From Deltaproteobacteria bacterium (GTDB taxonomy: Bacteria > Desulfobacterota > Desulfobacteria > Desulfobacterales > SpSt-501): a stretch of 64,000 bases of DNA. The stretch spans positions 1 through 64,000 of the forward strand of contig JACRCN010000104.1 of NCBI GenBank assembly GCA_016219005.1, given 5' to 3'. The position numbers and the translations under genes were made by a program. Below the pieces are notes generated by a model. The model worked only from the letters and a program-made list of their open reading frames with translations. It was not told the origin of the DNA and searched no databases. Within the stretch, counting starts at the first letter, position 1. Each line of letters begins with the position of its first letter. Of the stretch, positions 1,798 through 39,605 are shown one piece after another.

Positions 1798-2943
1798 CTA
1801 GGCCTCGACCGTGAGCCAGGCGAATCCATGGGAAAACCGCCCGCTTTCGGGGATGAAGCAAAGCAGGTTCTGGCCGGGCTGGAGCTTGTCGGAGTGAAAC
1901 AACTCTTCCAGGATGATGAAAATGGCTGCACTTCCCGTGTTGCCTTTTTCCGAAAGATTCGAGACCCACTTGCCGTCGGGTATTTCAAACCCGATCCGCT
2001 TCATTTCATCGTAAAATTTCGGGCGAAAGTAAGCCGATGAATAGTGGGGCAGGAACCAATCCACCCGATCGGGGTGCAGGCGGTGCTTCTTAACGACCTG
2101 TGAAAGAGCTTCCCCCATGGTTCGCACAATTTCGATATCGAGATGCTTGATATCCTGTCGGACCGAAAACCGATGCGGCAGTGCTTCCGGTTCGAATGCT
2201 TCGGTTTGCCGCCAGCCGACCATGCTGCCGTCCGCCCGCTTCATCCCGCCGCCGTACATGCACGTGTCCAGAAGGCCGGCGTAAGAGACCACATCGACCC
2301 ATGACACCTTCAGGGAAAGCCCATCTTTCCTTTTGCCTGTGGACAAAAACACCGCACCGGCTCCGTCCGATAGCATCCATCTCAGGAAATCGGCGTCAAA
2401 AGCGCGCACCGGCCGTGTCTCCAGGTCGGCAGCCCCATCGTAAAACGGGGTCAGGAATTGCGCCCGCATGTAGGAAGAAGCCAGTTCGGAGCCGGTGGCC
2501 ACTGCATTCGAAGCCAGGCCGGCGGCGACGCTCATGCACGCATATTTAAACGCTGTAATCCCGGAAAGGCAAATGCCGGAGGTCGTCACGGCCTCGCAGG
2601 CAGGGATTCCCAATTCCCCCTGCACCATGAGGGCGTGGCCGGGGAACAACAGGTCCGGACTCGTGGTGCCGCAGCACAGGCATTGAATGTCACCTGGAAC
2701 ATACCCTTCATAAGGCTGCAGCCTGCGGACCGCCTCCGCCGTGAGCTGGGCATTGGTATGGGTCAGTCGACCCGATTCAGGGTCCAGGGCGTAATATCGC
2801 CGGGCGATTTGATTGCTTTTGAGCACCAGTCGTTTGGCTTTGGAGGATACACCCCGGACTTTTCCGAGAACATCCTCGATGGCATCGTTTGTCACCGGGC
2901 GGTTGGGAAGAATTGCCGACACATCGTTGATAAATACGTCCAT
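1798..2943 (-). CDS. KAS III-like beta-ketoacyl-ACP synthase (StlD/DarB-like)
   Basis: A 381-residue thiolase-fold ketosynthase of the KAS III type. The probable catalytic Cys is about residue 125 (TTSGICLSGITAF), with the partner His in FLPHYSSAYF and Asn in EKGNTGSAA, completing the Cys-His-Asn triad typical of FabH relatives. In dialkylresorcinol and stilbene pathways the related StlD/DarB enzymes join two acyl chains; that activity is inferred here by similarity only. A GTG 15 bases further upstream is in frame, but ATG at 2943 is preceded by AAAGGAG at the right distance and is preferred. It follows the B12 radical SAM gene by 11 bases and is the last gene of that unit. Confidence 0.8.
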   Translation of the reverse strand: MDVFINDVSAILPNRPVTNDAIEDVLGKVRGVSSKAKRLVLKSNQIARRYYALDPESGRLTHTNAQLTAEAVRRLQPYEGYVPGDIQCLCCGTTSPDLLFPGHALMVQGELGIPACEAVTTSGICLSGITAFKYACMSVAAGLASNAVATGSELASSYMRAQFLTPFYDGAADLETRPVRAFDADFLRWMLSDGAGAVFLSTGKRKDGLSLKVSWVDVVSYAGLLDTCMYGGGMKRADGSMVGWRQTEAFEPEALPHRFSVRQDIKHLDIEIVRTMGEALSQVVKKHRLHPDRVDWFLPHYSSAYFRPKFYDEMKRIGFEIPDGKWVSNLSEKGNTGSAAIFIILEELFHSDKLQPGQNLLCFIPESGRFSHGFAWLTVEA

Positions 2944-2954
2944 GATCTCCTTTC

Positions 2955-4265
2955 TCACCCGTGGGATATGTGCTTCAGGAATCGCTTCAGCATACCGGCA
3001 TAGGCCTGGTAAAAAAGCTTGGGTTCCATGCGGGTGGGGCAGACGGCGTTCGTAAACGTGTAGTAGTCCAAGTCCGTGATGGTGATTTTGTGTCTCATTG
3101 CCCGGTGCAGCGGGGTCCCGGGCAGAGGCGTCAGAATCGACGGCAACGGCAGGTCGATGGCATGCGACCCCACAAAGCGCTCCAGGGCATCGAAATCCGC
3201 TTCGGTGTATTCCGGAGCCACGATGAAATCGCCAATGACCCGGATGCCCAGATCTTTAAGGATGCCCATGGCCTCGATGTTGACGGCAACCGAGCTTCTC
3301 TTGTTCAACTGCGCAAGCCGAGCGTCGCTTATCTCCTCAAACCCGATGACCGCCGCCGCCAGCCCGGCTTGTTTCCATAACTTAAACAGGTCAGGATGCC
3401 GGGTCACCGTCTCCGCCCGCACATCAGCGACGATCGCCCTTTTCAACCCGGATTCAATAATACACTGGCCCAGGCCGAGGGCATTGTCCAGATCGCCGAA
3501 CGTGTTGGCATCCACCAGGCGGACGACCGGGACTTCCCCCAGCAGCTTCATGTCGCGCAGGACCGCTGCCGGCCGGTGAGTGAAGTAGCGCCCGTGGGTC
3601 ATATTCGGGATGGAGCAGAAAATGCACCGATGCGTACAGCCATAGGCCGAGGCGACGAAGCCGACTTTTCCGCCCACGCCGCTCATCACATACTGGTCTC
3701 TGTGCGTAGCGACCAGGTCGTAGCGGGGGGGGCAGTCTTCGACAATGTCCGCATGGGAATAGTCCCGCCGGACATAATTCAGTTTCCCGCCTGGATTGGT
3801 TTTAGCAACCCCCGCGACGCCATCGCCGACCGAACGGTCGGCGATGGCGTCGACCAATTCTCGGAAGCTGAGCTTGCCCAGGCCCACAACGATGTAATCG
3901 ATGGCGTCGTGGTTGAAAAACGCGGGATCGCACGAGGCATGATGGCCGCCCACCACGACCAGGGCATCGCTGTTTCGCTTGACCTCCCCTGCCAATCGCA
4001 CAACGGTGTTGGCTTCACAGGTCACGCCGGTGAAACCGACCAGGTCGGGTCCAAACTGGTCGAGGGTTTTTTCCAGAACGTTCGGAGCCACCTTCAAGTC
4101 GACTATGGCGACGGCATGCCCGTCCAGGTTCCCGGCGATAACCTCGAGTGCCAAGGGCTCGCCTCTGAAAATCATCTTGATCGTATCGATCCCGTATTCC
4201 TCTTCGGGGATGCTCCTGCCGCAGTTGGGCGGGTTCACGAGCAGAATCTTCATAACGCTTCCCAT
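2955..4265 (-). CDS. B12-binding-type radical SAM enzyme 1
   Basis: A 436-residue protein with an N-terminal Rossmann-type cobalamin-binding-like region (MKILLVNPPN; VVVGGHHAS) and a radical SAM core whose CTHRCIFC motif (Cys 210, 214, 217) would bind the 4Fe-4S cluster. The canonical DxHxxG cobalamin ligand motif is not obvious, as in several relatives that bind B12 base-off without it. Family members carry out C-methylations, ring formations and rearrangements. It is paired with the KAS III-like gene and divergent from the ABC exporter. The start could be ATG 4265 or the ATG four codons later. The coding sequence contains a perfect 38 bp palindrome at 3815-3852. Confidence 0.85.
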   Translation of the reverse strand: MGSVMKILLVNPPNCGRSIPEEEYGIDTIKMIFRGEPLALEVIAGNLDGHAVAIVDLKVAPNVLEKTLDQFGPDLVGFTGVTCEANTVVRLAGEVKRNSDALVVVGGHHASCDPAFFNHDAIDYIVVGLGKLSFRELVDAIADRSVGDGVAGVAKTNPGGKLNYVRRDYSHADIVEDCPPRYDLVATHRDQYVMSGVGGKVGFVASAYGCTHRCIFCSIPNMTHGRYFTHRPAAVLRDMKLLGEVPVVRLVDANTFGDLDNALGLGQCIIESGLKRAIVADVRAETVTRHPDLFKLWKQAGLAAAVIGFEEISDARLAQLNKRSSVAVNIEAMGILKDLGIRVIGDFIVAPEYTEADFDALERFVGSHAIDLPLPSILTPLPGTPLHRAMRHKITITDLDYYTFTNAVCPTRMEPKLFYQAYAGMLKRFLKHISHG

Positions 4266-4495
4266 GTTTGCATGCTGTTACTCCGGCAAAGGTTGACTCG
4301 AAAAGGCTTTGAGGTTAAGTATTAAGTTTCGACTGAAAGCCTGCCATCGATCCATCGGGTAATTATATGGGTAGTGCCGGGATTTTGCAAAGTGAATTTA
4401 ATTAAAAAAATCTCACCTAACCGACCCATCCCAGGCGATAAAAGCGAACCCCGCAAGTGCGTTCGGCGACAAGACCATCCTTCGAGGCAACGGGC

Positions 4496-5266
4496 ATGAC
4501 GCATCCGGAGTTCCCCCCTCTCACGACGATCCTTTGGGCCGAGGGGCTCACCAAGACTTATGCGCATACGCGAACTCCCGCCCTCGCATCCTTCAGCTTG
4601 TCCATGGAGCCCGGGGAAATCGTGGGCCTGTTGGGACCCAACGGTGCGGGAAAAACAACGGCCATCTCCCTGTTGACCGGGCTTTTGGCTCCGGATTCCG
4701 GCAGCGTGCACATTTGCGGCGCCGATCTTTCCAAAAACCCCAGGAAAGCGCGGCAATGGATCGGTTTGGTCCCGCAGCACATCGCCTTGTATCCAAGCCT
4801 GACGGCTGCTGAAAATCTGTCTTATTTCGGCAGAATGTATCGAATCAACGGGCGCGAATTGAAGGAGCGCGTCAATGCCTGCCTGGAATTTGTGGGTCTC
4901 TCGAACAGCGCTCATGGCCGAATTGCGGCTTTTTCCGGAGGGATGCAACGACGGGCCAATTTGGCCGTCGCACTGCTGCATCAACCCCGGCTGCTTTTCC
5001 TGGACGAACCCACGGCGGGAGTCGACCCGCAATCACGCAACATGATTTTAGACCGGCTTTCTGAACTGAGCCGCTCCGGAGTCAGCATGCTCTATACCAC
5101 GCACTATATCGAAGAAGCCGAGAAAATCTGCTCTCGCATCGCCGTTATCGACGAAGGGCGCACCATCGCACAAGGCAGTCCCGGGGAATTGACCCAAGCG
5201 CACCCAGACTGCAATGATCTCGGCCAGCTTTTTCTCCGGTTGACCGGAAAAGACCTGCGGGATTGA
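4496..5266 (+). CDS. ABC-2 type exporter, ATP-binding subunit
   Basis: A cytoplasmic ABC ATPase with Walker A GPNGAGKTT, Q-loop, signature FSGGMQRR, Walker B LLFLDEP and the H-loop (TTHYIEEAE) all intact. The DrrA/CcmA-like layout is typical of drug or lipid exporters of the ABC-2 class. ATG 4496 is chosen because GAGG lies about 8 bases upstream; an in-frame earlier start at 4457 lacks a good site. The permease gene starts 2 bases after the stop, so the two are translationally coupled. Its place between KAS III and the MMPL region suggests it may export the cluster product or a precursor, but this is inference. Confidence 0.92.
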   Translation: MTHPEFPPLTTILWAEGLTKTYAHTRTPALASFSLSMEPGEIVGLLGPNGAGKTTAISLLTGLLAPDSGSVHICGADLSKNPRKARQWIGLVPQHIALYPSLTAAENLSYFGRMYRINGRELKERVNACLEFVGLSNSAHGRIAAFSGGMQRRANLAVALLHQPRLLFLDEPTAGVDPQSRNMILDRLSELSRSGVSMLYTTHYIEEAEKICSRIAVIDEGRTIAQGSPGELTQAHPDCNDLGQLFLRLTGKDLRD

Positions 5267-5268
5267 GA

Positions 5269-6594
5269 ATGCAGCCTCTTATAGCAACCCTTTTCAAGGA
5301 ATTGCGCCTGCTCTATCGCGACCGGTCCGGGCTGCTCGTTCTTTTTGTCATGCCCGCCGTGCTGGTCGTGGTGGTTTCGCTGGTCCAGGAAAACGTGCTG
5401 AAGGCGACGGGCGCGGCCCGCATGGACATTCTCTTCATCGATCAGGATCGACAGGCCTTCGGCAAGCTCATCCGGGAACAGTTGGATGCCCTCGATACCG
5501 TGACGCTGGTCACGTCACTGGACGGGCAAGGGATAGATACCGAACATGCCAGGGCGCTGGTCGACAAGGGCCGCTACCAAGTATGTATCGTCGTTCCGGC
5601 AGGGATCACTGCAGCGGTGCGCACCCGGGCGGTTGAACAAATCTCGGATGCCTTTTCCGGCGGATCGAGGGAGGCTGCCCTGCCCCTGCCCAGCGTATCG
5701 GTTTATTTTGATCCCCTGGTTCAAGGAGCCTTTCGATCCTCCCTCCTGAATGCTCTGAAACAGATGCTCCTGGTTATGGAAATGGAAACAAAAGCCAAGG
5801 CCCTGGCGGAAGCATTGCCGGCCCGGTTCCAGCAGACTCTGAGTGCGCTTGCCGGCCGGATATCAATGGACCCGGCGAGCATCCCCAAAATTCAGATGGA
5901 TCCGGGCTGGGGAGGTCGGCGGTTGATGGATGTCGTAGCCGAGCAAAGCCGTTTGAAGAAACTGCCGACCTCGGTCCAGCAAAATGTTTCGGCGTGGTCG
6001 GTGTTCGGCATTTTTTTCATCGTGCTCCCATTGGGAGGTGCCATCATCCGCGAACGCAAGGACGGCACCCTCGCACGGCTGAGAACGTTGCCGGTTCCCT
6101 ACATTACCCTTCTAGTGGGAAAACTGGGCGCCTACGTCGCCGTCTGCTGGGTGCAATTCCTGTTCATCGTCCTGATGGGAAAAGCGGGGCTGCCCCTGCT
6201 GGGGACACCCGTTCTCAGCCTTGGCTCCGACACCACCGCCTTGATCGTTACGGTGACGATGGTCGCCCTGGCGGCCTGCGGCTACGGCCTGATGCTCGGC
6301 ACCCTCGCCCGCACCTTAGAGCAGGCGACCATGTTCGGGGCGGTCTCGGTGGTCTGCGCGGCCGCTATGGGCGGCATCATGGTACCGGTCTATGTCATGC
6401 CGCCGGCCATGCAGACCATCAGCATGTTCTCGCCTTTGGCCTGGGGACTCAATGCGCTGGTGGAGATTTCGGTGCGCGAGGGTACATTGGGGTCGGTCCG
6501 GCACGAGCTGCTCTACCTGACCGTTTTTTTTGCGGTGACCATGGCCATCGCATGGACCCGTTTCGGTCGATTCGATCGCCAGGCAGAAATATAG
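5269..6594 (+). CDS. ABC-2 type exporter, permease subunit
   Basis: A 441-residue inner-membrane protein: one N-terminal transmembrane helix (GLLVLFVMPAVLVVVV), a large extracytoplasmic domain of about 200 residues, and a C-terminal block of about five helices, the standard YhgE/ABC-2_membrane_3 arrangement. ATG 5269 follows the ATPase stop (TGA 5264-5266) by two bases; an in-frame TTG at 5263 is less likely. It should form a homodimer that works with the preceding ATPase. Confidence 0.9.
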   Translation: MQPLIATLFKELRLLYRDRSGLLVLFVMPAVLVVVVSLVQENVLKATGAARMDILFIDQDRQAFGKLIREQLDALDTVTLVTSLDGQGIDTEHARALVDKGRYQVCIVVPAGITAAVRTRAVEQISDAFSGGSREAALPLPSVSVYFDPLVQGAFRSSLLNALKQMLLVMEMETKAKALAEALPARFQQTLSALAGRISMDPASIPKIQMDPGWGGRRLMDVVAEQSRLKKLPTSVQQNVSAWSVFGIFFIVLPLGGAIIRERKDGTLARLRTLPVPYITLLVGKLGAYVAVCWVQFLFIVLMGKAGLPLLGTPVLSLGSDTTALIVTVTMVALAACGYGLMLGTLARTLEQATMFGAVSVVCAAAMGGIMVPVYVMPPAMQTISMFSPLAWGLNALVEISVREGTLGSVRHELLYLTVFFAVTMAIAWTRFGRFDRQAEI

Positions 6595-10397: not shown

Positions 10398-10943
10398 TCA
10401 AATAACGTAAGGAATGAACATTTTGGTTTTCAGCATGTAATGACGGTAGCTTTCACCGAAATACGCTAAGTTTTCTTTTTCTTCTATCAATGCGGCAAAA
10501 ACACCTGAACCCGTTGCAGCCAAAGCAACCATGAATAATGTGACCTCGATATGTCTTAACAAAACTCCCCATGCCAGCAATAAAAGCGAGCTGTACATGG
10601 GGTGCCGGACATGCTTGAAAATCCCGGACTCTATCAATACAGTCGTTTTCTCGAAACCAAACAGCGCATGATCACTTCGCTGCCTGCTCACCCCGCCCTT
10701 TTCCCGCATGATAAATACAGCTGAAAGGACGAACACCAGGGAGGCAATCATAAGCGCCGAGGAAATCAATTGCTGAAGGTCAAATTCTTCCACGATTAAA
10801 TACCGGTGATTTTGAACCGCAAGCCATAAAATACACTCCCACACAAGCAATCGATACAAGCCATGTTTTTTCAGACTGAACAGGGTCCGCCAGGAAAGGG
10901 TTATTAGAGGAAGCGAAAGAATGCAAAATACAATGGCTTTCAT
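10398..10943 (-). CDS. Isoprenylcysteine carboxyl methyltransferase-like membrane protein
   Basis: A 181-residue inner-membrane protein with about five hydrophobic helices. It carries the family's signature GIFKHVRHPMYSSLLLLAWG, which forms the SAM-binding site in ICMT and phospholipid N-methyltransferases, and the C-terminal Glu-rich EEKENLAYFGESYRHYM. It probably methylates a membrane lipid or an acyl carboxylate; the substrate is unknown. It follows the deacetylase gene by 6 bases in the MMPL operon, which suggests tailoring of the cluster product. Confidence 0.8.
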   Translation of the reverse strand: MKAIVFCILSLPLITLSWRTLFSLKKHGLYRLLVWECILWLAVQNHRYLIVEEFDLQQLISSALMIASLVFVLSAVFIMREKGGVSRQRSDHALFGFEKTTVLIESGIFKHVRHPMYSSLLLLAWGVLLRHIEVTLFMVALAATGSGVFAALIEEKENLAYFGESYRHYMLKTKMFIPYVI

Positions 10944-10949
10944 CCCTGA

Positions 10950-27178: not shown

Positions 27179-27340
27179 TGACTTCCGGCGAAGTCATCCA
27201 GTCGATTAATTTTTGACGGACTCAAGAGATCCCCGCTCACATGCCATTTCGAGCGAAGCGAGAATTCTTTCGGCGGCAGCGCATTAAAAACATCAGGTGT
27301 TGGAATTATTCCCATGGCAGATTTTAGAACCGGAGATCTC

Positions 27341-28593: not shown

Positions 28594-28662
28594 AATGTTC
28601 ATTTGTTCAGGGCGCAGCTTCCCGAACCGTATAAAAACAGTACCGAATACAGGCAACCCCCG

Positions 28663-29948: not shown

Positions 29949-30644
29949 TCAGGTCACGAGATCCATGAGCGTAGTGATCTTCATCCCGGAGCCCGCCAAC
30001 AGCTCGGAATTTTCTTGCCGGATGTGTCGGATTGTCTTTTCTTCGTGTGCGGTGGACAGGGCGATGAACATTGCGCCGCGCACCCCATCGTCACCGGCTG
30101 CTTTTTGTTTCAGCAACCTGCTCCCGGCATCAATCCAGCCGGCTAAAACCGTGCGGCATGTTCCGGATGAAAGCAGGTCGACGGCAATGCAGAGGGCATT
30201 GTAGCCTCTTTGTCCGATCGGGTCGCCAACGGTAAATGTCGGCCCTGTCAGCTTGAAATGAATTGCCGCTTCACTGATCGCAATGCCGGGCAGGGTGAAG
30301 GCGAACAGGTTCGGGCTCGCGTAAATGCCTTCTTCTTCTCTGGCGGTCGCATAAAACGCCAAATCGGTTTCAAAACATCCGTAGCGGGTGGAGGCAATGA
30401 TTCCGATGGGTCGCGTGCTCTCCGCGCGGTCCATCCCGGTATCTTTCAAAGCCAAGGCGATCGCGGCACATCCGATCTGGCAGTAGCTGTCAAATCGTCG
30501 ATACCGGACCGGCGGGCTTGAATATATCTCCTCGACCGGGGGGACCAGGGGATCCCCTGCCGCCATGACGGGTTTCAGCCCATCCGTCATCCGGCCCCAC
30601 TTGAAGGCGGTGACCCAACCCCCGCCGATGACATTGACGTTCAT
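29949..30644 (-). CDS. Truncated ketosynthase, chain-length-factor-like (ApeC-like)
   Basis: A 231-residue protein matching only the N-terminal half of KAS enzymes. In the place of the catalytic Cys the helix reads GDPIGQRGYNAL, with Gly/Gln instead of Cys, and the His-containing C-terminal half is absent. This is the pattern of the ApeC chain length factor, which pairs with the active ketosynthase ApeO. The neighbouring gene at 30687-31805 is the likely partner. It is not a broken gene: the frame is intact and has a clean start. Confidence 0.75.
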   Translation of the reverse strand: MNVNVIGGGWVTAFKWGRMTDGLKPVMAAGDPLVPPVEEIYSSPPVRYRRFDSYCQIGCAAIALALKDTGMDRAESTRPIGIIASTRYGCFETDLAFYATAREEEGIYASPNLFAFTLPGIAISEAAIHFKLTGPTFTVGDPIGQRGYNALCIAVDLLSSGTCRTVLAGWIDAGSRLLKQKAAGDDGVRGAMFIALSTAHEEKTIRHIRQENSELLAGSGMKITTLMDLVT

Positions 30645-30686: not shown

Positions 30687-31805
30687 TCAGATCTGCACTA
30701 CCTGCAGCACGAGGGCGGCGTTGACGCCGCCGAATCCGGAATTGGATGTTATGATGTTCCGGCCATCAAACGCCTGGGCCTGAGGCGACACCCGGCCTGC
30801 CGCCTTGGATTCAGGGGTCTGCAACCCCACGGTGGGCGGAATCAGCTTTTGAGCGAGGGCGTGGGCACATATCACGGCATCGATGCCGCCGGCGGCTCCC
30901 AGCGTATGCCCGACCGCCCCTTTGATCGAAAAGACCGGAAAACGACGATCACCGAAAACCGCCTCGATGGCCGCCAGTTCCATGCTGTCGTTGAAAATGG
31001 TGCCGGTTCCATGCGCGCAAAACGCCTGTGTGTCATCCGGGGACAACCCGGCCATCCCCATGGCCGCTTCCATTGCCATGACAAGGCCGGCGCCATCCCG
31101 CGACGGTCCCGTGATGTGGTTGGCGTCATTCGAGATGCCCCACCCGGACAGATGTGCCAGTCTATCCAGTTTATGCTTTCGCGCGGTTGCCGCATCGGCC
31201 AGCAATATGGCCACGGCACCGTCGCCGATGCACATCCCGTCCCTCGCTTTATCGAAAGGACGGCACGCGGTAGGGGTGAGCGCCTTCAGGACGGAAAATC
31301 CGGCAACGGCGAAGCGGGTGACGACATCGGCAGCACAGATAAGGACGGAGCCGTACTCTCCCCGGGCAATCTTCTGGGCGCCGACCGCCATCGCCACGGT
31401 GGAAGAGGCGCACGCCGCATTGATGTCAAACCCGAGGGGACCGATGCCCAGCCGCTCTGCCACCCATTGGTGGTAATGCTCCGGCAGGTAGGGCATCTGA
31501 ATGTCCTGATCGGCTTCGATATACTCGGCGTTACCTTTAATACCGGCCCAGATAATGCAGGTTCCCGGGGGGACCGGCGTTATCTGCTCAAGAACTCTGC
31601 GGGTTAAAGCACATACGCGGTTTTCCCTTGCCGCGGGCAGCGCGTCGGGTATGCGGCGGGCCTTCCGGCCGGTCAACCGATCCGCATGAAAACGGTGGAT
31701 GGCATCCAGGGCACGGTGTCCCTTCCACAACCCCTGCCAGGTGGCTTCAACGCTATTTCCGAGGCTGGTCGCGATCGAATGTTTGACAACATAGACGTCC
31801 CGCAT
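30687..31805 (-). CDS. FabF-type beta-ketoacyl-ACP synthase C (ApeO-like)
   Basis: A 372-residue KAS enzyme, a little shorter than FabF. Active residues are present: Cys132 (NAACASSTVAM), His in CAHGTGT, and His in KGAVGHTLGAAG; the NSGFGGVNA loop closes the protein. GGGGAA precedes ATG 31805. It lies next to the truncated ketosynthase and probably forms a KS:CLF heterodimer that sets chain length. Confidence 0.88.
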   Translation of the reverse strand: MRDVYVVKHSIATSLGNSVEATWQGLWKGHRALDAIHRFHADRLTGRKARRIPDALPAARENRVCALTRRVLEQITPVPPGTCIIWAGIKGNAEYIEADQDIQMPYLPEHYHQWVAERLGIGPLGFDINAACASSTVAMAVGAQKIARGEYGSVLICAADVVTRFAVAGFSVLKALTPTACRPFDKARDGMCIGDGAVAILLADAATARKHKLDRLAHLSGWGISNDANHITGPSRDGAGLVMAMEAAMGMAGLSPDDTQAFCAHGTGTIFNDSMELAAIEAVFGDRRFPVFSIKGAVGHTLGAAGGIDAVICAHALAQKLIPPTVGLQTPESKAAGRVSPQAQAFDGRNIITSNSGFGGVNAALVLQVVQI

Positions 31806-31820: not shown

Positions 31821-33311
31821 TTATACGTGGTCCAGATCGCGGAAATTGTTTGCCTCCCCTCTGCCTTTTAAATGCATCTCGTACCGGCCCCTCCAGCCGT
31901 ATTTTCTCAGTTTCCGGCCCAGATAGATTTTCAAAAACGGCCTGAATGCATATATCCAGATACCCGTCCACAGCGGGCCCCTGGCACGCACCCTTTCCGA
32001 CGGCTCCCACCAACCCATCACCTTCTGTTGATGATACCAGACCAGGTATTGAAGCTGCTCCGAACTCAAATTGCGGGTTTTTACATTGGCCCACATTCCA
32101 TTATAGCGGGTGAAATCATCCGGATTGGTCACCAGCCCCTCGTCAAGGAGATGCTGGCGCATGGCGGTTTTCGGATAGGGTGTCAAGATCTGGCAGTAGG
32201 AGGTATCCGCCTCGATCGATTTTAAGAACTGGTAGTTCTTGACGATGTCGTCTTCATCATCGTCCGGAAAGCCGAAGATCATCCCGGCCACCACCATGAT
32301 GCCGTACGCGTGACAAATGGCCACGGCCTTCCGGGACGCTTCAACGATATCGCCCTTTCCCGCAGCCTTTAGATTCTTTTTGGATACGTTTTCGATGCCG
32401 AGAAAAATTGTCTTGAACCCGGCCTGGGCCATCTTGCGCACCATGTCTTCATTCCGGGACATGGTGATGCAATCGCACTGAGCTACGAAATTCAGGTTCC
32501 GGAATTTTCTGGCGATGATGGCATCGCAGAGTGCCTTAACGCGGTCCGGCTCCAGCACGAGGTTGTCGTCGGCCACGAATATCCAGCGGGTATTGCGCTT
32601 GAAGTAGATATCTTCGATGTCGGTGAGAACCCGCTCCTGGGGAAAAGAGCGGAAGGTCCGGCCATACATGTGATTCATGCTGCAAAAGTTGCAGGCACGG
32701 GTGCAGCCCCGGGAAGTCTCGATCACTTCTACCTTGCCCGACATGATATGATATCCCCAGGTCAGCCGCCGCTTGTCCCGAATGGGCAGCTTGAGCTTGG
32801 ACAGGTCGAGAAGTTCTCCCCGGGGGTTGTGAATAAATCCTGTGCCGTTTTTAAAGGACAGGGAGGGTATTTCCTCCAAGCGGTCTTTACCGTCCAGTGC
32901 ATTGATGAGTCGCCGAAAGGCCTCCTCGCCCTCGCCCCGGATGATGAAATCGATCCAAGCCGCCTCGCCCGAGGCGGCAATCTCTTCATACATCAACGTC
33001 GCGTGGTACCCGCCGATGACGATTTTTACCCCCGGCAGCAGATGTTTGATCAGCCGGGCAAGCCGGGTGCAGGTTTTATACTGCCAGGCCATGGCCGACA
33101 GGCCGACCACATCCGGCCGAATTTTCAGCAGCGACCTGGTCACGTATTGTCTGACCCGGCCGCGCTTCCGGATCAGGTCGATGATGGTTACCCGGTGCCC
33201 TTCATCGACATTGGCGCCGATGCTGGCAATGCCGTTGTTCGGCATGTGAAAGGCACTCTCATGCATGATAACCGCTGCCACATCGGGCATTGACATCAAT
33301 ACAATCTTCAT
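31821..33311 (-). CDS. B12-binding-type radical SAM enzyme 4
   Basis: A 496-residue protein with cobalamin-binding-like N-terminus (MKIVLMSMPD; IVIGGYHATLMYEE; RGEGEEAF) and motif CTRACNFC (Cys 203, 207, 210). The C-terminal 60 residues are basic and hydrophobic (RPFLKIYLGRKLRKYGW) and may touch the membrane. It shares a 4-base ATGA overlap with the PlsC-like gene, so the pair is co-translated. It is similar in layout to hopanoid-modifying radical SAM enzymes, but the reaction is unknown. Confidence 0.87.
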   Translation of the reverse strand: MKIVLMSMPDVAAVIMHESAFHMPNNGIASIGANVDEGHRVTIIDLIRKRGRVRQYVTRSLLKIRPDVVGLSAMAWQYKTCTRLARLIKHLLPGVKIVIGGYHATLMYEEIAASGEAAWIDFIIRGEGEEAFRRLINALDGKDRLEEIPSLSFKNGTGFIHNPRGELLDLSKLKLPIRDKRRLTWGYHIMSGKVEVIETSRGCTRACNFCSMNHMYGRTFRSFPQERVLTDIEDIYFKRNTRWIFVADDNLVLEPDRVKALCDAIIARKFRNLNFVAQCDCITMSRNEDMVRKMAQAGFKTIFLGIENVSKKNLKAAGKGDIVEASRKAVAICHAYGIMVVAGMIFGFPDDDEDDIVKNYQFLKSIEADTSYCQILTPYPKTAMRQHLLDEGLVTNPDDFTRYNGMWANVKTRNLSSEQLQYLVWYHQQKVMGWWEPSERVRARGPLWTGIWIYAFRPFLKIYLGRKLRKYGWRGRYEMHLKGRGEANNFRDLDHV

Positions 33312-34093
33312 GCCTCTTCCTCACCGTCATTTTTTAATTCGAGCATTGCGCGCACCGTGGCCGCCACGCGGGACAAGGAACCTGTTGCACACTCGGCTGC
33401 CGCGTCGATGCCGCCGATCCGCTCCAGGCGGATGGTGTTGGGCCCACGGGTATTGAACGAAAACACGCCGCGCCGGAACATCCTGTCGGTATTGCGGATG
33501 AAAAGAACTTCAATCGGCGCCCGACAGCGCCGGGCTATTTTGAACGCCCCCTTGTTAAATCGCCCGAGGCTTCCATTCGGACTCCGGGTGCCTTCAGGAA
33601 AAACAATCAGGTTACCCCCATCGGCCAGGAACGCATCCATTCTTTCGAGCCGCTGGATCATCATTTCGGCAAAGCGCCCCTCCGCGGATGACGGAATATA
33701 ACCGGACCACTGCAGCATGCGGCCGAAGAACGGGATATCAAACAGCCGGCTTTTTACAATGGTATTGTGTTTTTCGTACAAAGATATGAGCAGAATCGAA
33801 TCCAGATAAGACCTGTGGTTGCAGACGATGACCGATGAGCGGATCCGCCTAACCTCGGGTTGAATATGCCAGCGGTGACCGGGCATCAACCTCCTCACCA
33901 GGAAAAAGAAACCCCGGTAGAACCGGCTGTTGAGCTGCTGAAAGGCCCGCTCGCGATTCTTCGAAAAAATCCCGGCCCAGAGATAAAAGGGGGAGAACAG
34001 CAACACGAATCCGGCTGTAAAATACGTCCACACTACGAGCGTGATTAAAAAATCGAAAATGGGTTGAAGCCGCCCTCGCCCCGCGGAGGTCAT
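33308..34093 (-). CDS. PlsC-type 1-acyl-glycerol-3-phosphate acyltransferase-like protein
   Basis: A 261-residue membrane-associated acyltransferase: N-terminal hydrophobic helix, the catalytic HxxxxD motif in NHRSYLDS, and the substrate motif VFPEGTRS. It would transfer the completed acyl or polyene chain from carrier to a glycerol-type or sugar acceptor. It is coupled to radical SAM 4 by overlap, and is preceded by ketosynthase D. Confidence 0.9.
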   Translation of the reverse strand: MTSAGRGRLQPIFDFLITLVVWTYFTAGFVLLFSPFYLWAGIFSKNRERAFQQLNSRFYRGFFFLVRRLMPGHRWHIQPEVRRIRSSVIVCNHRSYLDSILLISLYEKHNTIVKSRLFDIPFFGRMLQWSGYIPSSAEGRFAEMMIQRLERMDAFLADGGNLIVFPEGTRSPNGSLGRFNKGAFKIARRCRAPIEVLFIRNTDRMFRRGVFSFNTRGPNTIRLERIGGIDAAAECATGSLSRVAATVRAMLELKNDGEEEA

Positions 34094-34118: not shown

Positions 34119-35363
34119 TCATTCCCCGTCGAATTTTTTTAGAATGAAGCAGGTGTTCACGCCACCGAAGGCGAAATTCTGAACTGCGGCGATCCGGATC
34201 GGCTGCTCCAAAAGCTGAACCGCGTGCCGAATCATTGCACAGCGCTCATCCACCTCGTCCAGATTCAGCGTCGGCGGAATGAATCCTTCCTCCATCAAGT
34301 AAAGGCTGATGATCGCCTCAATCGCACCGCAAGAGCCCATGGTATGGCCCATATAGCTTTTCAAACCGGTAACCACCGGCCCGTCTCCGTACAAGCTGCC
34401 GATGGCCTGGGCCTCGATCACGTCTCCCATTTTGGTTGCCGTGGCGTGGGCGCTGACGAAATCGACCTGACCCGGAGCGATCGCGGCGGCTTCCAGGGCC
34501 AGCGCAATCGTCCGGGTGATCCCCTGGATATTCGGCAGGATCAAATCGCCGCCGTTATTGTTGCATGAAAACCCGATGATCTCCCCGAGGATAGGGGCCC
34601 CCCGATTTTTGGCGTGCTCATACTCTTCGAGCAGAACCGCTCCGGCCCCTTCGCCGACGACCAATCCGTCGCGCGACACGTCAAAGGGGCGCGGTGTCAG
34701 ATGCGGTGTCGCGTTGAATTCCGTGGAGCAAGCCAGCAGGTTGTCGAATACCGCTACGGTGGTCGTATCGTATTCGTCGGCCCCACCGCAAAGCATGGCA
34801 TCCTGCATGCCGTACTTGACCGTTTCGTAGCCAAACCCGATGGACTGGCTGCTCGTGGTGCAGGCCGTTGATGAAGAGATGACCCGGCCGGTAATGCCGA
34901 ACATCTTTGTGATGTTTACCGCCGTGGTGTGGACCATGGATTTGAGATAATCCACCGCACCGATGGAAGCGAACCGTTGTTTCGATTCGGTGAAAAACGT
35001 TTTGTAGATATCCCGCTGGGCCGACGGGCTGCCATGGGTGGATCCGAACGCAACTCCGAGACGGCCCGAGGTGATGAACTCCGGGTCAAGCCCCGACGCC
35101 TCTAATGCTTCCTTGGCGACCTGGCATGCATAAAAAGAAACCGGCCCCATGGTTTTGCGATGGCTGCGTTTGAAATCGTATGCGATGGGGTAATCCACGG
35201 TGCCGTAGACGCCGGAATGCATGTGGGCGGTCAGGAGCCCGTCGTCGCGCAGCTTCTTGACGCCGGAGATCCCCTCCACCAGATGCCGAACGATCTCCTC
35301 CCGGGTTCGGCCGATCGGCGTTATGGCGCTGCATCCCGTGATGACGACGCGTCGGGCCATCAT
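34119..35363 (-). CDS. FabF-type beta-ketoacyl-ACP synthase D
   Basis: A 414-residue KAS enzyme with Cys168 (SSSTACTTSS), the first His in SAHATATKMGD and the second in LKSYMGHTMGSCG. It ends with NFAFGGVNT. Its start (ATGATGG) overlaps the ACP 3 stop, so ACP and KS are co-translated, the arrangement usual for cognate partners. The His loop lacks the GT of NAHGT, as in ketosynthase B. It may be the elongating KS of the right-hand operon. Confidence 0.9.
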   Translation of the reverse strand: MMARRVVITGCSAITPIGRTREEIVRHLVEGISGVKKLRDDGLLTAHMHSGVYGTVDYPIAYDFKRSHRKTMGPVSFYACQVAKEALEASGLDPEFITSGRLGVAFGSTHGSPSAQRDIYKTFFTESKQRFASIGAVDYLKSMVHTTAVNITKMFGITGRVISSSTACTTSSQSIGFGYETVKYGMQDAMLCGGADEYDTTTVAVFDNLLACSTEFNATPHLTPRPFDVSRDGLVVGEGAGAVLLEEYEHAKNRGAPILGEIIGFSCNNNGGDLILPNIQGITRTIALALEAAAIAPGQVDFVSAHATATKMGDVIEAQAIGSLYGDGPVVTGLKSYMGHTMGSCGAIEAIISLYLMEEGFIPPTLNLDEVDERCAMIRHAVQLLEQPIRIAAVQNFAFGGVNTCFILKKFDGE

Positions 35364-35662
35364 TGTTCCATGGTGGACAGGCATGGTTCGGAACCGGAGG
35401 ATTTCGCAAGACACCGATCCTGGGCCAGGGCCTCGATATAATCCACGATCTGGTTGATGGTTCGAATTTCCATGGCATTCTTTTTTTCAGCCTGGCTCAG
35501 TTGGGTGTCGAGGAGGATCTCGATCTCGTGCAGAAGCTCAACTGCGTCGATGCTGTCGAATTCGTAAGCGTCCCTTAGATTGTCATCGGCACTCGGGTCT
35601 ACGATTTCGAATTTTTCATCGAAAATCCGTATGATTGCAGCTTTGATGGCGTCGCGTTCCAT
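35360..35662 (-). CDS. Acyl carrier protein 3
   Basis: A 100-residue ACP with attachment Ser37 in EFDSIDAVEL. The last 15 residues form a polar tail beyond the ACP fold. It overlaps the ketosynthase D start by 4 bases. It resembles the ACPs of APE clusters in size and in its position next to an LpxL-like acyltransferase. Confidence 0.9.
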   Translation of the reverse strand: MERDAIKAAIIRIFDEKFEIVDPSADDNLRDAYEFDSIDAVELLHEIEILLDTQLSQAEKKNAMEIRTINQIVDYIEALAQDRCLAKSSGSEPCLSTMEQ

Positions 35663-35762: not shown

Positions 35763-36641
35763 TCATTTCAGCCTTGGGCCGAGAAACCGTTCGAAATGAT
35801 ACCATTCCAGCGGATTGCCGCGGAGATGGGTTTCCAACAAATCCGCATATCCCTGGGCCGATTTGCGGATGGCCTCCGCTCTCAGCCGGCGGGGTGCTTT
35901 TTCGATATACAGGGGGTCGGACATTTTCAGGTGGTAACGCTTTTTGCCGGTACGGCGTGAGAAGAAAACAATGAGCGGCGCTCCGGACAGCATGGCCAGC
36001 AAGTGCGGCGTTTCCGGCAGGCACACCTTGTGACCCAGCATGGAAACTGAAACGACGCGCTGGCTTGAATTCCAGATCTGGTCTCCGGTCATGGAAACCA
36101 GGCCACCGTCCTGGATGAACCGCAGGCCCTCCAGAAGATCGAACGATGTCCCCCAGTTCTTTTCGGCGGCAACGATGCGAATGCCCCTTCGCCGCAGATC
36201 TTCCTTCTGAAGACGCTCGATATGGGCCTTGGCGCGCTGTCCCATGAATAAGATCAGTGGGATCTGCTCCCTTTTCTGTTTCATCAAATGGGCGGCGATT
36301 TCCCAGTTGCCGAGGTGGGACATCAGGACGATACCGCCGGTTTTTCGGTCCAGGGCGTTTTCTACGTGCTCCCAACCCTCATTGGTATAGCTGATATCGC
36401 CGAACTCCTGGAACAGATAGCGGTCCAGATAAACAGACGTGAAGTTCTGGAATTGTTTCCAGGTGCACCAGAAATGATAGGCCCTGGCACGCTGCGGGAA
36501 TAGCGCACGATAAAACCGCACACTGACCATCACCCGCCGGGGAGCAAAGAAAAAATAACCGGCGGCAATGCCTTTGGCGATGAGATCGAACGTCCACACC
36601 CCGAAGATCCGGGCCATAAATGGCAGGATGCGATAAAACAT
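35763..36641 (-). CDS. LpxL/HtrB-type lysophospholipid acyltransferase
   Basis: A 292-residue inner-membrane acyltransferase with an N-terminal hydrophobic anchor and the catalytic HxxxxE motif in SHLGNWE. Further family segments are LLEGLRFIQDGGLVSMTGDQ and PEWY-like NPLEWYHFERF. In APE clusters the equivalent activity is joined to a glycosyltransferase in one protein (ApeJ-like); here the glycosyltransferase is the adjacent upstream gene. It probably acylates a sugar or lipid headgroup with the cluster's product. Confidence 0.88.
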   Translation of the reverse strand: MFYRILPFMARIFGVWTFDLIAKGIAAGYFFFAPRRVMVSVRFYRALFPQRARAYHFWCTWKQFQNFTSVYLDRYLFQEFGDISYTNEGWEHVENALDRKTGGIVLMSHLGNWEIAAHLMKQKREQIPLILFMGQRAKAHIERLQKEDLRRRGIRIVAAEKNWGTSFDLLEGLRFIQDGGLVSMTGDQIWNSSQRVVSVSMLGHKVCLPETPHLLAMLSGAPLIVFFSRRTGKKRYHLKMSDPLYIEKAPRRLRAEAIRKSAQGYADLLETHLRGNPLEWYHFERFLGPRLK

Positions 36642-36652: not shown

Positions 36653-37399
36653 TCAGTGCCTCCTGAAGCGACGGGTCAGAATACGATGGGTGATCAGACG
36701 ACTGAACAGGCCCGTGTTTCTCAGGAAATCAAAAAAAGGATGAAAATGCGAGATCCGACGAGCACCCGGTCCGTAGGACACACGAACGGGGACCTCGGTC
36801 ACCGGCATTTGGCTCCACTTGGCCTTGACCAGGACTTCAATCTCGAATTGGAACCGTCGGGCGATGATGCCCAGGTGGAGGCATTCGGGCAGAGGATATG
36901 CCCTGAACCCGCTCTGGGAATCCGCCACAACCGGCCCACCGGCCATCCGCACCCAAAAATTTGAAAATTCCCGGCCGAATCTACTCGTCCACGGCACATC
37001 CGGCGCAAGCATCCCCTGGCGTTTTCCGATGACAATGGGACGCTGGTTCTCAGGAATTGCCCTGATCAAGGTCTTCGCATCCTCAGGGTCGTGCTGGCCG
37101 TCGGCATCCAGCGTAATCGCCCAGTCCGATATTTTTGCGACCTCCGCAAAGCCGGTCATAATGGCAGCTCCTTTGCCTCGGTTGAAACGATGACGCAGAA
37201 CCCGGGCGCCTTCGATGCCTTTTATTCGCTCGAAGGTTGCATCGGTCGATCCATCGTCCACAACCACAACCGGAATATCGAGTTTCAGAGTCCGTTGCAC
37301 CACGTCGGCAACCGTTTGTTCATGGTTGTAAACGGGGATCAGGGCGGCAAACCTGTTGCGGAGGATGTCGTCGGTCCTTGCGGCGTGCAATGGCTGCAT
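36653..37399 (-). CDS. Family 2 glycosyltransferase (dolichol-phosphate mannosyltransferase-like)
   Basis: A 248-residue GT-A fold enzyme: AALIPVYNHEQTV, VVVDDGST (nucleotide-sugar site), GKGAAIMTGF and LDADGQHDPED (metal-binding DxD). The C-terminal QSGFRAYP and basic RFLF-like end fit polyprenyl-phosphate mannosyl/glucosyl transferases. It lacks the membrane domain of larger relatives. It lies 11 bases from the LpxL-type gene. Confidence 0.88.
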   Translation of the reverse strand: MQPLHAARTDDILRNRFAALIPVYNHEQTVADVVQRTLKLDIPVVVVDDGSTDATFERIKGIEGARVLRHRFNRGKGAAIMTGFAEVAKISDWAITLDADGQHDPEDAKTLIRAIPENQRPIVIGKRQGMLAPDVPWTSRFGREFSNFWVRMAGGPVVADSQSGFRAYPLPECLHLGIIARRFQFEIEVLVKAKWSQMPVTEVPVRVSYGPGARRISHFHPFFDFLRNTGLFSRLITHRILTRRFRRH

Positions 37400-37482: not shown

Positions 37483-39201
37483 TTAACGGGTTGACCCTAG
37501 AAATGCAACCGCCCAGGTCCCCGGTCCCATATGGGCACCCGACGTCAGGGAAAGGGGTTGGAGGATGATCTCGGCCGAAACATGCCGGCTTTTGATTTCC
37601 CCCAAAACATCATTTTCCACCCACTGTCGGTTGTCTGAATATTCTATCATGATCAGCGGCCGGGCATCCTGTCCCAAACCCTTTTCCAGCTTTTCCAAGG
37701 CGAATTTGAGCTGCTCGTCTTTATCGCGGACCGTCCCCGCCTTCACGGCCCCTTCGGCCGTGGGGCTGATGACGGGTTTCATGTGAAATAGATCGCCCAA
37801 AAAACCTTTGGTCCTGGACAATCGCCCGCCCGCGGCCAGATACTGAAGCCGGTCAAGAAAAATGTATTCCTGGCTATTTCGAACAGCAGTCTCGGCAAAT
37901 CGAATCACCTTCCCGGCGTCATCGGTCCGGGTCGCATACCGGGCAGTCGCCAGGGCGGCAATCCCTAGCCGTCCGGAAGCCAGACCGGTGTCGATGACCG
38001 CCAGCCGGTCCTCCGGGTCATTGCGCCTTTTCCAGGCTGCGACGACCTCATAATTGCCCGTGTAAACCGAGCCGACACAAAGATAAAGGGCCTGGCCGTA
38101 ACGGCTGAGAATGCTCTGGCACCGCTGGTGACGTTCGAATACGGATGCCTGTGCCGTGGTCACCCTGACACCGCTTCGCATCAAAGCATAAAGCTCCTCA
38201 GGCGGAAACAGCGTTTCCGGCAGCGATTTGTCTCCGACAATAATATAGCTGTCAAGCAGGGTCATCCCCAACCGTGCGGCATCTTCTCGCGTAATCGAGC
38301 CTGCCGCATCGGTTACGATATGCATCACCGGAGGCTTGTCCGAGGAAGGCCTGTTTTCTGCCTGGGCCCCCATATCCTCCTCCGACCAATGGACTAGCTC
38401 TCCTATATCTGCAAGTTGTTTGCGGACAGCATCACGCTGCTCGGTGTGGATATGGATTTTAAGCCTCTCATTATCCTGCAGCGCTACAATACTGCCTCCG
38501 TATTGGGATAGGTTTTCCAGCGGTGAATCAAATTCCTTGCCAACGTGGATCACCGCATCGACACAATATCCTTTTGGATTATCCGCCGCAAAATCGGAAG
38601 GCAGTCGAAGTTTTTTTCTGAAGATCTCGGTTATGGGACGAAACACATCCGCCCGGCCGGCAAGGCGGCAGAAAAAACCTTCCATGAAAATGAACATCCC
38701 CAATGCCCCTGAATCGACAACGCCTGCGGCTTTTAGAGCAGGCAGTGTTTCAGAAGTGGAATGTACGGCTTTTTCAAGTTGATCGATCAGAGTGGGGGAA
38801 GTTGCCGCCAATGGATCTGAAGATAAATTTTCGAGATGGCTCAGCAATTCATCGAAAACGGTAAGCATCGTCCCCGGCTTTGGATCTGCGATCGCCTGCC
38901 AGGCCCTGTCTCGTCCAACCCGGGTTGCCTGATAGATGTCTTTTGAAGGATTTTCAGCAACGAAGCCTGCGAAAAACCCGGACGCGATATTACCGGAATT
39001 GCCGGTGGCGGAGACAAGCAGCTTTCGAACGGTGGTTTCCGCGCTGGCATCCATCCGATGCAAGGGCGCCAGGCTGATCATCAAATTGCGGCCGGTGTCG
39101 GCATCGGCAACCGGAAATACATTGATTTCATCCAGAAGATCCGCCCACGCAGCAAGCCTTTCGTAGCCGGCGGCAAATGCACCTTGCAGAACTGGATCCA
39201 T
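37483..39201 (-). CDS. FakA-like kinase fused to DegV/FakB-like fatty-acid-binding domain
   Basis: A 572-residue fusion. The N-terminal part is DhaL/DAK2-like with the nucleotide/Mg loop INVFPVADADTGRN (residues about 26-39), GNSGNIASGF and VVDSGALG; the FakA-type middle domain ends in KIHIHTEQ (about 248-255). From about residue 293 a DegV domain follows (MHIVTDAAGSITRE; VTTAQAS; VGSVYTGNYEVV). In Firmicutes separate FakA and FakB proteins phosphorylate free fatty acids to acyl phosphate. This single chain could activate a released acyl chain for reuse. It overlaps the thioesterase start by one base, and linking a thioesterase to a fatty-acid kinase is suggestive. Confidence 0.85.
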   Translation of the reverse strand: MDPVLQGAFAAGYERLAAWADLLDEINVFPVADADTGRNLMISLAPLHRMDASAETTVRKLLVSATGNSGNIASGFFAGFVAENPSKDIYQATRVGRDRAWQAIADPKPGTMLTVFDELLSHLENLSSDPLAATSPTLIDQLEKAVHSTSETLPALKAAGVVDSGALGMFIFMEGFFCRLAGRADVFRPITEIFRKKLRLPSDFAADNPKGYCVDAVIHVGKEFDSPLENLSQYGGSIVALQDNERLKIHIHTEQRDAVRKQLADIGELVHWSEEDMGAQAENRPSSDKPPVMHIVTDAAGSITREDAARLGMTLLDSYIIVGDKSLPETLFPPEELYALMRSGVRVTTAQASVFERHQRCQSILSRYGQALYLCVGSVYTGNYEVVAAWKRRNDPEDRLAVIDTGLASGRLGIAALATARYATRTDDAGKVIRFAETAVRNSQEYIFLDRLQYLAAGGRLSRTKGFLGDLFHMKPVISPTAEGAVKAGTVRDKDEQLKFALEKLEKGLGQDARPLIMIEYSDNRQWVENDVLGEIKSRHVSAEIILQPLSLTSGAHMGPGTWAVAFLGSTR

Positions 39202-39605
39202 TATGCAAACCCCAGCGCCCGAGTGATATCAGCCGGTATTTCAAACTGCATCTCCATTTCCGGCAATTTAACGGATAGCTGTTCGCTTTTGCCCCGGGTA
39301 CAGACTTGTCCATTTTCAGCCAGCCTGATTTCAAAATCGATGGCAATCTTGTAGACCGCTTCGTTCACGGTCGCCTTACAGATGAACTCATCGTCAAAGC
39401 GAAGAGGGACAATATGCTTGACGGAAAAACGCGTTACGGGGAAGATGATCTGCTGCCTAACAGAATATTGATAAAGATCCACCCCGGCATGCCTAAAGAG
39501 CCCAAACCTGGCGATATCAAAATATTTCAAATAGTTACCATGCCATACAATCTGCAGGGGATCCAGATCATGAAAGGGCACACGCAGCTTTATCTCGTAG
39601 TTCAT
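39201..39605 (-). CDS. Hotdog acyl-CoA/acyl-ACP thioesterase (ApeK-like) 2
   Basis: A 134-residue 4HBT-type hotdog protein: FHDLDPLQIVWHGNYLKYFDIAR includes the catalytic Asp and the following W-H-G-N turn. Together with the FakA/DegV fusion (TAATG overlap) it opens the right-hand leftward operon. It is shorter than the first thioesterase and not closely similar in sequence. It would release free acyl chains, which could then be phosphorylated by the fused kinase. Confidence 0.85.
   Translation of the reverse strand: MNYEIKLRVPFHDLDPLQIVWHGNYLKYFDIARFGLFRHAGVDLYQYSVRQQIIFPVTRFSVKHIVPLRFDDEFICKATVNEAVYKIAIDFEIRLAENGQVCTRGKSEQLSVKLPEMEMQFEIPADITRALGFA

Follow-up and report, generated by a model that had tools for sequence, protein, structure and literature searches.

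We examined a 64,000-nucleotide stretch of DNA (the window), which forms the start of contig C77 in a deltaproteobacterial genome of 5.24 Mb (G000; 98.5% complete), and observed between 1.8 and 39.6 kb a gene cluster that combines six radical S-adenosylmethionine (SAM) proteins (rS1 to rS6) with genes for lipid assembly and export. On balance we favor, with moderate confidence, the reading that this cluster directs synthesis of an anaerobic polyene lipid of the aryl-polyene (APE)/flexirubin superfamily, which would be tailored by radical SAM enzymes, released, anchored and exported to the outer membrane. The cluster is real, conserved and under-described, and it joins known kinds of cluster, being neither a lone island nor categorically new.

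Window translations were scanned with Pfam, and 23 of them also with NCBIfam. The cluster contained four FabF-type ketosynthases (KS1 to KS4), a DarB-family KAS III, a KS subunit without the catalytic Cys, three acyl carrier proteins (ACPs), three dehydratases, FabG, two 4HBT thioesterases, PlsC- and LpxL-type acyltransferases, GT2 and GT25, LolA, DUF3261 and MMPL, together with the six motif-intact radical SAM proteins (Table 1). Every gene class named in a preliminary description of this stretch was recovered in its place by Pfam, NCBIfam and motif search. To that list we add the phosphopantetheinyl transferase (PPTase) half of the 507-aa dehydratase, the methyltransferase on MMPL, a DAK2/FakA-middle/DegV fusion, a polysaccharide deacetylase, a PEMT/ICMT-like methyltransferase and an ABC-2 pair.

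Conservation of the radical SAM core

The core of the cluster recurs in many mostly anaerobic bacteria. Using rS2 as bait against one genome each of 84,980 species, 330 stretches were matched by pattern and 310 of these encode a relative, so that uniqueness of the island to the window genome was rejected. The best 80 of the 310 stretches (79–87% identity) were kept, with flanks that stop at 10 kb or at the contig end. By record title, 74 are Desulfo- or delta-proteobacterial, three are Spirochaetes, one is Planctomycetota and two are unspecific. Within these 80 loci, whose flanks are often cut, we observed rS3 in 79, ACP1 and KS2 in 73 each, the ApeI-like dehydratase in 71, KS1 in 66, the thioesterase TEa in 57, the dehydratase-PPTase fusion (DH-PPT) in 56, rS4 in 48 (three of these matches only 34–36% identical), ACP2 in 45 and rS5 in 30. 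Named strains carrying rS2 and rS4 together within the 10-kb flanks include Desulfatitalea alkaliphila (L047), Desulfosarcina widdelii (L060), Desulfogranum mediterraneum (L079) and Desulfofustis glycolicus (L091).

Linkage was also examined by a test not starting from a radical SAM protein, in which KS1 (E 1e-150) and rS2 (E 1e-60) were searched in 197 genomes spread evenly over the phylum. Both were found in the same 15 genomes, the window's own included, and in no others; they share a contig in 14 of the 15, while in G202 they lie on two contigs, both near contig ends. With the genus-mate G004 added, a set of 16 carriers was used for the counts of rS4 to rS6. All 16 contained rS5, and 15 contained rS4, on the contig of rS2 in 14. 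The co-occurrence of KS1 and rS2 and the presence of rS5 among carriers led us to reject the radical SAM genes as passengers.

The CX3CX2C motif was found in all six radical SAM proteins by motif search, which also identified a C-terminal CC-x-C-x2-C motif in rS2 and rS3. The Pfam Radical_SAM model exceeded its cut-off in four (rS1, rS2, rS4, rS6) and fell just below it in rS3 (27.5 versus 29.5); rS5 had no match to this model in Pfam. A B12-binding domain was observed in rS1, rS4, rS5 and rS6. The predicted structure of rS5 (mean pLDDT 77.7) matches the cobalamin radical SAM structures AprD4 (TM 0.71), MgmA, TsrM and CysS. A solved sequence relative of rS2 was rejected, with none at E 0.01 in the PDB sequence search, and a fold search with rS2 returned general radical SAM matches only (BlsE, DesII, viperin; TM about 0.4). 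For rS3, solved sequence relatives were weak, the best being SkfB (3.2e-9).

Outside these loci, fifteen plasmid records carry rS2 relatives at 31–34% identity. In Burkholderia stagnalis a PaaI thioesterase and a phenylacetate-catabolic-type protein flank the relative, and two ACPs and a chlorinating enzyme lie 6–9 kb away. On an Alteromonas plasmid (L173) the rS2-like gene is the middle one of three, its neighbors encoding a MaoC dehydratase and another protein of phenylacetate-catabolic type; in Methylomagnum an ACP and a TauD oxygenase precede the relative and a nonribosomal peptide synthetase follows it; and in Tistrella a phenylacetate-catabolic-type relative lies about 1 kb after it. Both Cys motifs are kept in the Methylomagnum, Alteromonas and Burkholderia proteins. 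Because carrier proteins or acyl-thioester enzymes occur near three annotated plasmid relatives, these neighborhoods point to acyl thioesters as candidate substrates of rS2 and rS3, a theme that fits the position of ACP1 beside rS3-rS2 in the window. rS2 and rS3 point to an uncharacterized radical SAM family with relatives beside acyl-thioester enzymes on proteobacterial plasmids.

Relation to aryl polyene, ladderane-type and flexirubin clusters

The cluster links three lipid or pigment systems, namely aryl polyenes, flexirubins and ladderane-type clusters. To compare it with the first of these, 18 E. coli APE proteins (c1186–c1204; gene functions from PMC8253772) were searched against 37 window proteins by BLAST (E 0.01). 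Twelve of the 18 have window relatives (ApeR, Q, P, O, M, L, K, J, I, F, E and D), although ApeL (E 0.001) and ApeF (3e-4) match only weakly, and ApeJ is split in the window into separate GT2 and LpxL proteins. No relative of ApeH (aryl loading), ApeG, C, B, A or N was found among the 37. The window chain-length factor (CLF) is without a BLAST match to ApeC; it is CLF-like by Pfam, and fusion open reading frames (ORFs) of relatives match ApeC. The elements of the APE core present in the window are thus an ApeO/ApeC-type KS-CLF, the ApeR KS, a ketoreductase, ApeI- and ApeP-type hotdog dehydratases and ACPs, and a thioesterase, PlsC, GT2/LpxL and the outer-membrane export set of MMPL, LolA and DUF3261 (the last recognized via homologues) are also shared. 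Pfam did not detect DUF3261 in the window protein itself. Unlike the E. coli cluster, the window has its own PPTase, six radical SAM proteins, the additional KS1 and KS2, and a DAK2-DegV fusion. The preliminary description of the island as APE-like therefore stands for the chassis. It also set the radical SAM load apart from APE clusters, and rightly so, but such a load has precedents elsewhere in biology (TIGR04072; PMC2649909).

Cys-His-His is kept in KS1 to KS4, while the 231-aa CLF-like subunit has none of the three residues (motif search). A KS tree built by a quick method from 68 rows (28 chosen loci plus E. coli and the window) places KS1 and KS2 as sister clades confined to the window type of cluster (type B) and groups KS4 with E. 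coli ApeR (SH-aLRT 89). KS3 is one of nine rows that group together (SH-aLRT 100), the others being six KSs of a second cluster type (type A, below) and one each from G056 and G004. Relatives contain 41 ORFs of 642–813 aa that begin with a KS 29–39% related to KS3 (for example L021:16760-18949), at least three of which were counted twice under two locus ids. The one such ORF scanned, from L061, has a KS-like N-terminal domain after the KS, and we read these ORFs as KS-CLF fusions in a type II system. ApeC is matched by seventeen ORFs in relatives, sixteen of them of fusion length. Since KS3 groups with type A KSs while relatives carry long fusion ORFs, the KS-CLF fusion appears to have been replaced in the window genus by a split pair of type A descent, in which KS3 is the probable partner of the CLF. 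PDB sequence searches gave general FabF matches for KS3 and general polyketide synthase dehydratase matches for DH-PPT.

A relation to ladderane-type clusters was observed through rS4, which passes TIGR04072, a model named for a ladderane-cluster radical SAM protein (394.6 bits versus a cut-off of 360). The cut-off is exceeded in 19 of 58 relatives, which form two score groups. Type A is the higher (539–680 bits; G007, G009, G025, G039, G040, G046), and the same order holds both types. In all six type A genomes a relative of rS5 (58–63% identity) adjoins rS4, and in none of the six was rS2 found. Shared between the types are the TIGR04072 radical SAM protein, the rS5 relative, KS3/CLF, multiple FabF proteins and ACPs. 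Type B has in addition rS2, rS3, KS1, KS2, the DH-PPT fusion and the MMPL-methyltransferase fusion; the type A loci gave no rS2/rS3, KS1/KS2 or DH-PPT. Of the type A loci one, L041/L042, was scanned with Pfam. It encodes an amine-oxidase/phytoene-dehydrogenase-like protein and an AMP ligase, along with an ApeI-like dehydratase and a SPASM protein, and so resembles the combination described for Kuenenia and Desulfotalea (PMC2649909). The AMP ligase of ladderane-type clusters is lacking in the window, and no phytoene-dehydrogenase-like oxidase was recognized in Pfam scans of 39 window ORFs. Descent of rS2/rS3 from the SPASM-domain gene of L041 was rejected (hhalign probability under 1%). From TIGR04072 and the neighboring genes we infer that rS4 and rS5 correspond to the Kuenenia radical SAM pair. 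In other loci ApeH is matched at 25–30% by nine ORFs, a count in which one gene appears twice. A third kind of TIGR04072-like locus (L027, L033, L035; 359–373 bits) contains two KSs, FabG and an ACP-like gene, and the stretches fetched show little else from either type of cluster.

Fatty-acid/radical-SAM clusters were described in 2009 in anammox bacteria, Desulfotalea, Geobacter and Pelobacter (PMC2649909), and antiSMASH "ladderane" clusters, reportedly of unknown function, were called in Cariaco Basin members of the Desulfobacterota and of further non-anammox phyla (PMC9902471). Ladderane biosynthesis is described as unsolved, partly because anammox bacteria lack pure cultures (PMC4790861). 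The type B cluster places relatives of the ladderane-cluster radical SAM protein within an APE-like exported pathway, and its carriers include named strains, so that the chemistry is testable and cultured hosts are available for asking what ladderane-associated radical SAM enzymes do.

The flexirubin relation lies at the left end of the window, where the DarB-family KS, rS1 and the ABC pair are part of a dialkylresorcinol (DAR) cassette. In G004 the cluster continues with a KS, a CLF, DarH (452 bits, cut-off 300) and a DarG-like gene, followed by a tryptophanase-family lyase, an aromatic amino-acid lyase, an AMP ligase and two KSs. In the window genome, DarG-like, DarH (459.8 bits, cut-off 300), KS and CLF genes were observed on contig C21, 3.3 kb and more from its end. 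The last 141 bases of C21 match the first 141 of C77 without a difference. Contigs that neighbor each other in an assembly graph usually overlap in this way, and C21 therefore probably directly precedes the window. The lyase/ligase/KS module is found mid-contig on C30, with proteins 75–91% identical. In this aryl module a gene of the tryptophanase/tyrosine-phenol-lyase family adjoins the aromatic amino-acid lyase (L128:7632-9131; C30 of G000).

Flexirubin/arcuflavin clusters and the window genome have in common the DarB-family KS, ABC pair, DarG-like, DarH, KS and CLF genes and, elsewhere in the genome, the aromatic lyase and AMP ligase. Unlike them, the window has no DarA seen, rS1 next to DarB and a radical SAM core. 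DarA is a flavodoxin-like protein. rS1 lies beside DarB in the window, G004, G030 and Desulfofustis (L091), whereas L102 has no rS1 and a 305-aa gene beside DarB, with a flavodoxin-like reading on a weak PDB match (E 0.09). This 305-aa gene has no BLAST relative (E 1e-5) in the window, L128, L171, L168–L170, L166, L091, L093, L036 or L037. We speculate that rS1 stands in for DarA. The Azoarcus DAR cluster contains darA, darB, a BtrH-like protein and ABC genes (PMC3949708).

Proposed pathway and competing readings

We propose a pathway in which the product and all reactions are inferred from gene identities, motifs, conservation and linkage. The PPTase half of DH-PPT would activate the dedicated ACPs. 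Elongation would be carried out by KS1/KS2, the KS3-CLF pair and KS4, with reduction by FabG, and the ApeI-, ApeP- and PS-DH-type dehydratases would introduce double bonds. Because no enoyl reductase was recognized in the cluster by family scans, these double bonds would stay. rS3 and rS2, encoded beside ACP1, the cobalamin proteins rS4 and rS5, and rS6 where present may then modify the ACP-bound chain or the starter; sequence gives no choice among methylation, cyclization and rearrangement for these steps. A 4HBT thioesterase would free the acid, which the DAK2-DegV fusion would phosphorylate, a release and re-activation as acyl phosphate that is suggested by the overlap of the thioesterase and DAK2-DegV genes. 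From the acyl phosphate, PlsC/LpxL could transfer the chain to an anchor glycosylated by GT2 and GT25, and MMPL, LolA and DUF3261 would carry the product to the outer membrane, as proposed for APE. In this genus the DAR cassette (DarB, rS1 and the ABC pair, with DarG-like, DarH, KS and CLF on C21) may add a resorcinol partner, and the aryl module elsewhere in the genome (aromatic amino-acid lyase, AMP ligase, KSs) may supply the starter. A more tentative proposal, to which we give a fairly low probability, is that the product represents a widespread anaerobic lipid class new to chemistry. In it a fixed team of radical SAM enzymes would rebuild the skeleton of a polyene made on ACPs, rS2/rS3 acting on the chain bound to ACP1 and rS4/rS5 acting as in ladderane clusters, and in some lineages rS1 would replace DarA next to DarB in forming the resorcinol partner. 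Among the matches listed, no radical-SAM polyene cluster of this kind was described in the titles and abstract starts of open-licence PMC papers.

Several observations weigh against a radical-SAM-tailored polyene. Radical SAM substrates are assigned by guilt by association, and confidence in the predicted rS2 structure is moderate (mean pLDDT 66.7). rS5 lies off the contig of rS2 in three of the 16 carriers (G084, G120, G170), with an internal stop in G120; rS4 is absent in G100 and is weak and elsewhere in G172; and an rS6 orthologue (at least 55% identity) was observed in nine of the 16, near rS2 in only six and away from it in G158, G202 and G068. G056 contains, in order, rS4, rS5, ACP2, ApeP, FabG, LolA, DUF3261, PlsC, KS4, ACP3, LpxL, GT2, DegV, MMPL and the deacetylase. 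rS2 was not found in its genome, nor rS3, KS1, KS2 or DH-PPT in the 40 kb examined, and the cluster is also without rS6, so that this chassis is kept without rS2/rS3. The preliminary description had made its case depend on radical SAM genes being present in otherwise syntenic clusters of related genomes, and this holds for the joint occurrence of KS1 and rS2 and fails for rS2, rS3 and rS6 in G056. By BLAST, ApeH and ApeG are absent from the window, and the DAR loci of this genus gave nothing DarA-like, the rest of the genome not having been searched. DarH exceeds its cut-off in eight of the 58 relatives (six of 13 rS2 carriers, two of six type A genomes and none of 39 others, two of which have matches under the cut-off at 142–147 bits). 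An orthologue of the aromatic lyase (71–100%, query genome included) was observed in three of the 13 carriers and none of the 45 other genomes; with weaker matches (39% or less), which are probably other ammonia-lyases, the count is 33 of 58. The DarH and aromatic-lyase modules are thus optional companions of polyene clusters, and at six and three of the 13 carriers they cannot define the core product.

These counts also bear on an ordinary flexirubin/arcuflavin-type pigment, an aryl polyene esterified to a dialkylresorcinol in which the radical SAM proteins only C-methylate the ring or chain. We consider this unlikely: DarB, the ABC pair, DarG-like, DarH, KS and CLF are present, the aromatic lyase and AMP ligase occur in G004 and G000, and the Azoarcus and Chitinophaga pigments have such gene sets (PMC3949708, PMC3992019), yet seven of 13 rS2 carriers are without DarH over the cut-off and ten of 13 without the lyase orthologue, while the radical SAM core is conserved, and no DarA was found beside DarB in the loci compared. 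A carbocyclized lipid, in which the rS4/rS5 pair would cyclize the polyene to a ladderane-like or other strained or ring-bearing chain, seems quite improbable to us, although it would account for the TIGR04072 score of rS4, the rS5 relatives adjoining rS4 in every type A genome, and the oxidase and AMP ligase of the scanned type A locus, as in Rattray's clusters. The window proteins scanned include no phytoene-dehydrogenase-like gene, PMC2649909 reports no ladderanes in Desulfotalea despite a syntenic cluster, and when candidate genes from Kuenenia were expressed in E. coli, no ladderanes were detected, nor were the two radical SAM proteins of one operon (PMC4790861).

The presence of outer-membrane export genes, glycosyltransferases and acyltransferases, with no enoyl reductase recognized, argues against an anaerobic pathway to polyunsaturated fatty acids or hydrocarbons, of the kind proposed for Desulfotalea, in which the APE-like genes would serve export only. 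Unusual polyunsaturated hydrocarbons are reported in Desulfotalea (PMC2649909) and DH-PPT shows a weak likeness to the dehydratase region of PfaA (36 bits, far under the cut-off); we regard this pathway as very unlikely.

Gene content and genomic setting

The features of the cluster are listed in Table 1. The genes for rS1 and DarB share 4 bases, and the resorcinol-DarB model scores 419.9 bits on the KAS III-like protein, under its stricter cut-off of 550. rS4 perhaps starts at 25382, where the TIGR04072 match begins.

Table 1. Features of the cluster, with positions in the window and the basis of each assignment
Feature	Position	Strand	Basis
StlD/DarB-family ketosynthase (dialkylresorcinol-type), accessory DAR cassette	1798..2958	-	NCBIfam NF005293 502.9 bits, cut-off 450
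rS1, B12-binding radical SAM, distantly HpnR-like	2955..4265	-	Pfam B12-binding and Radical_SAM; HpnR model 153.5 bits, cut-off 650
ABC-2 ATPase and permease (DAR cassette)	4457..6594	+	Pfam; relatives near DarG/DarH in L168, L169, L170
PEMT/ICMT-like methyltransferase and polysaccharide deacetylase	10398..11891	-	Pfam
MMPL exporter with fused C-terminal methyltransferase	11888..14950	-	Pfam; full-length relatives in type B loci
GT25-like glycosyltransferase	14957..15745	-	Pfam
DH-PPT, PKS-type dehydratase + 4'-phosphopantetheinyl transferase fusion (507 aa)	16384..17907	-	Pfam PS-DH and ACPS
4HBT thioesterase TEa	17886..18476	-	Pfam
KS1, FabF-type, Cys-His-His	18367..19662	-	Pfam; motifs
KS2, FabF-type, sister of KS1	19788..21038	-	Pfam; tree
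rS2, radical SAM with C-terminal CCx6CxxC	21174..22172	-	Most conserved of proteins compared
rS3, paralogue of rS2	22220..23317	-	hhalign probability 99.9
ACP1	23332..23622	-	Pfam; DS motif
ApeI-like dehydratase	23659..24057	-	Pfam PF22818, FabA
rS4, B12-binding radical SAM, ladderane-cluster family	24036..25475	-	TIGR04072 394.6 bits, cut-off 360
ACP2, nearest E. coli ApeE	25521..25787	-	Pfam; BLAST 37%
ApeP-like dehydratase	25915..26352	+	Pfam PF22817
FabG/ApeQ-like ketoreductase	26423..27178	+	Pfam; 47% to E. coli ApeQ
LolA-like	27314..27934	+	Pfam
DUF3261 (ApeN/LolB-like)	27931..28593	+	Via homologues: PF11659 in 11 of 23 aligned
rS5, cobalamin radical SAM	28603..29937	+	Pfam B12-binding; structure model
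CLF-like KS subunit without catalytic Cys	29949..30644	-	Pfam; motifs
KS3, groups with type A KSs	30687..31805	-	Pfam; tree
rS6, B12-binding radical SAM, BchE-like	31821..33311	-	Pfam; BchE 176.2 bits, cut-off 481
PlsC-type acyltransferase (ApeD-like)	33308..34093	-	Pfam; E. coli comparison
KS4, ApeR-like	34119..35414	-	40% to E. coli ApeR
ACP3	35360..35662	-	Pfam
LpxL-type acyltransferase, matches part of ApeJ	35763..36641	-	Pfam; E. coli comparison
GT2, matches part of ApeJ	36653..37399	-	Pfam; E. coli comparison
DAK2/FakA-middle/DegV fusion, fatty-acid-kinase-like	37483..39201	-	Pfam; NCBIfam DegV 135 bits, cut-off 99.7
4HBT thioesterase TEb (ApeK-like)	39201..39605	-	Pfam; 31% to ApeK

GC content is 55.8% in the cluster and 63.9% in the right flank; ten 20-kb stretches sampled from the genome have 60.8%. 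rS2 was observed in two of the seven genomes of the genus, and three of the five without it are only 80–87% complete. A seventh B12 radical SAM gene (41815–43737), which adjoins a metallo-beta-lactamase-fold gene (40579–41265), is present in all seven genomes; it was rejected as a cluster member on this distribution and placed in the flank. The right edge of the cluster lies between 39605 and 40567. In G001, a homologue of the gene at 40567–41265 is located about 2 kb from a partial homologue of a gene beyond the G004 cluster, and the same two flanking genes are about 52.7 kb apart in G004. This empty-site comparison comes from one genome, as among the non-carriers G001, G002, G003 and G006 only G001 shows the second gene. 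The block was likely gained or lost as a unit.

An RsgA-type GTPase gene (9136–10206) inside the window cluster has no counterpart in the sister locus of G004 (L029), where matches to its PEMT and lipase-like neighbors are about 15 bases apart, with no room for RsgA. A palindromic repeat of about 150 bases, MITE- or REP-like, was observed between KS1 and KS2 (19641–19790) and at the right edge (39822–39973); copies are 78–82% alike. The repeat has a DNA fold z-score of -5.2, and more copies were observed on C7, C21, C30 and C46 in the stretches fetched.

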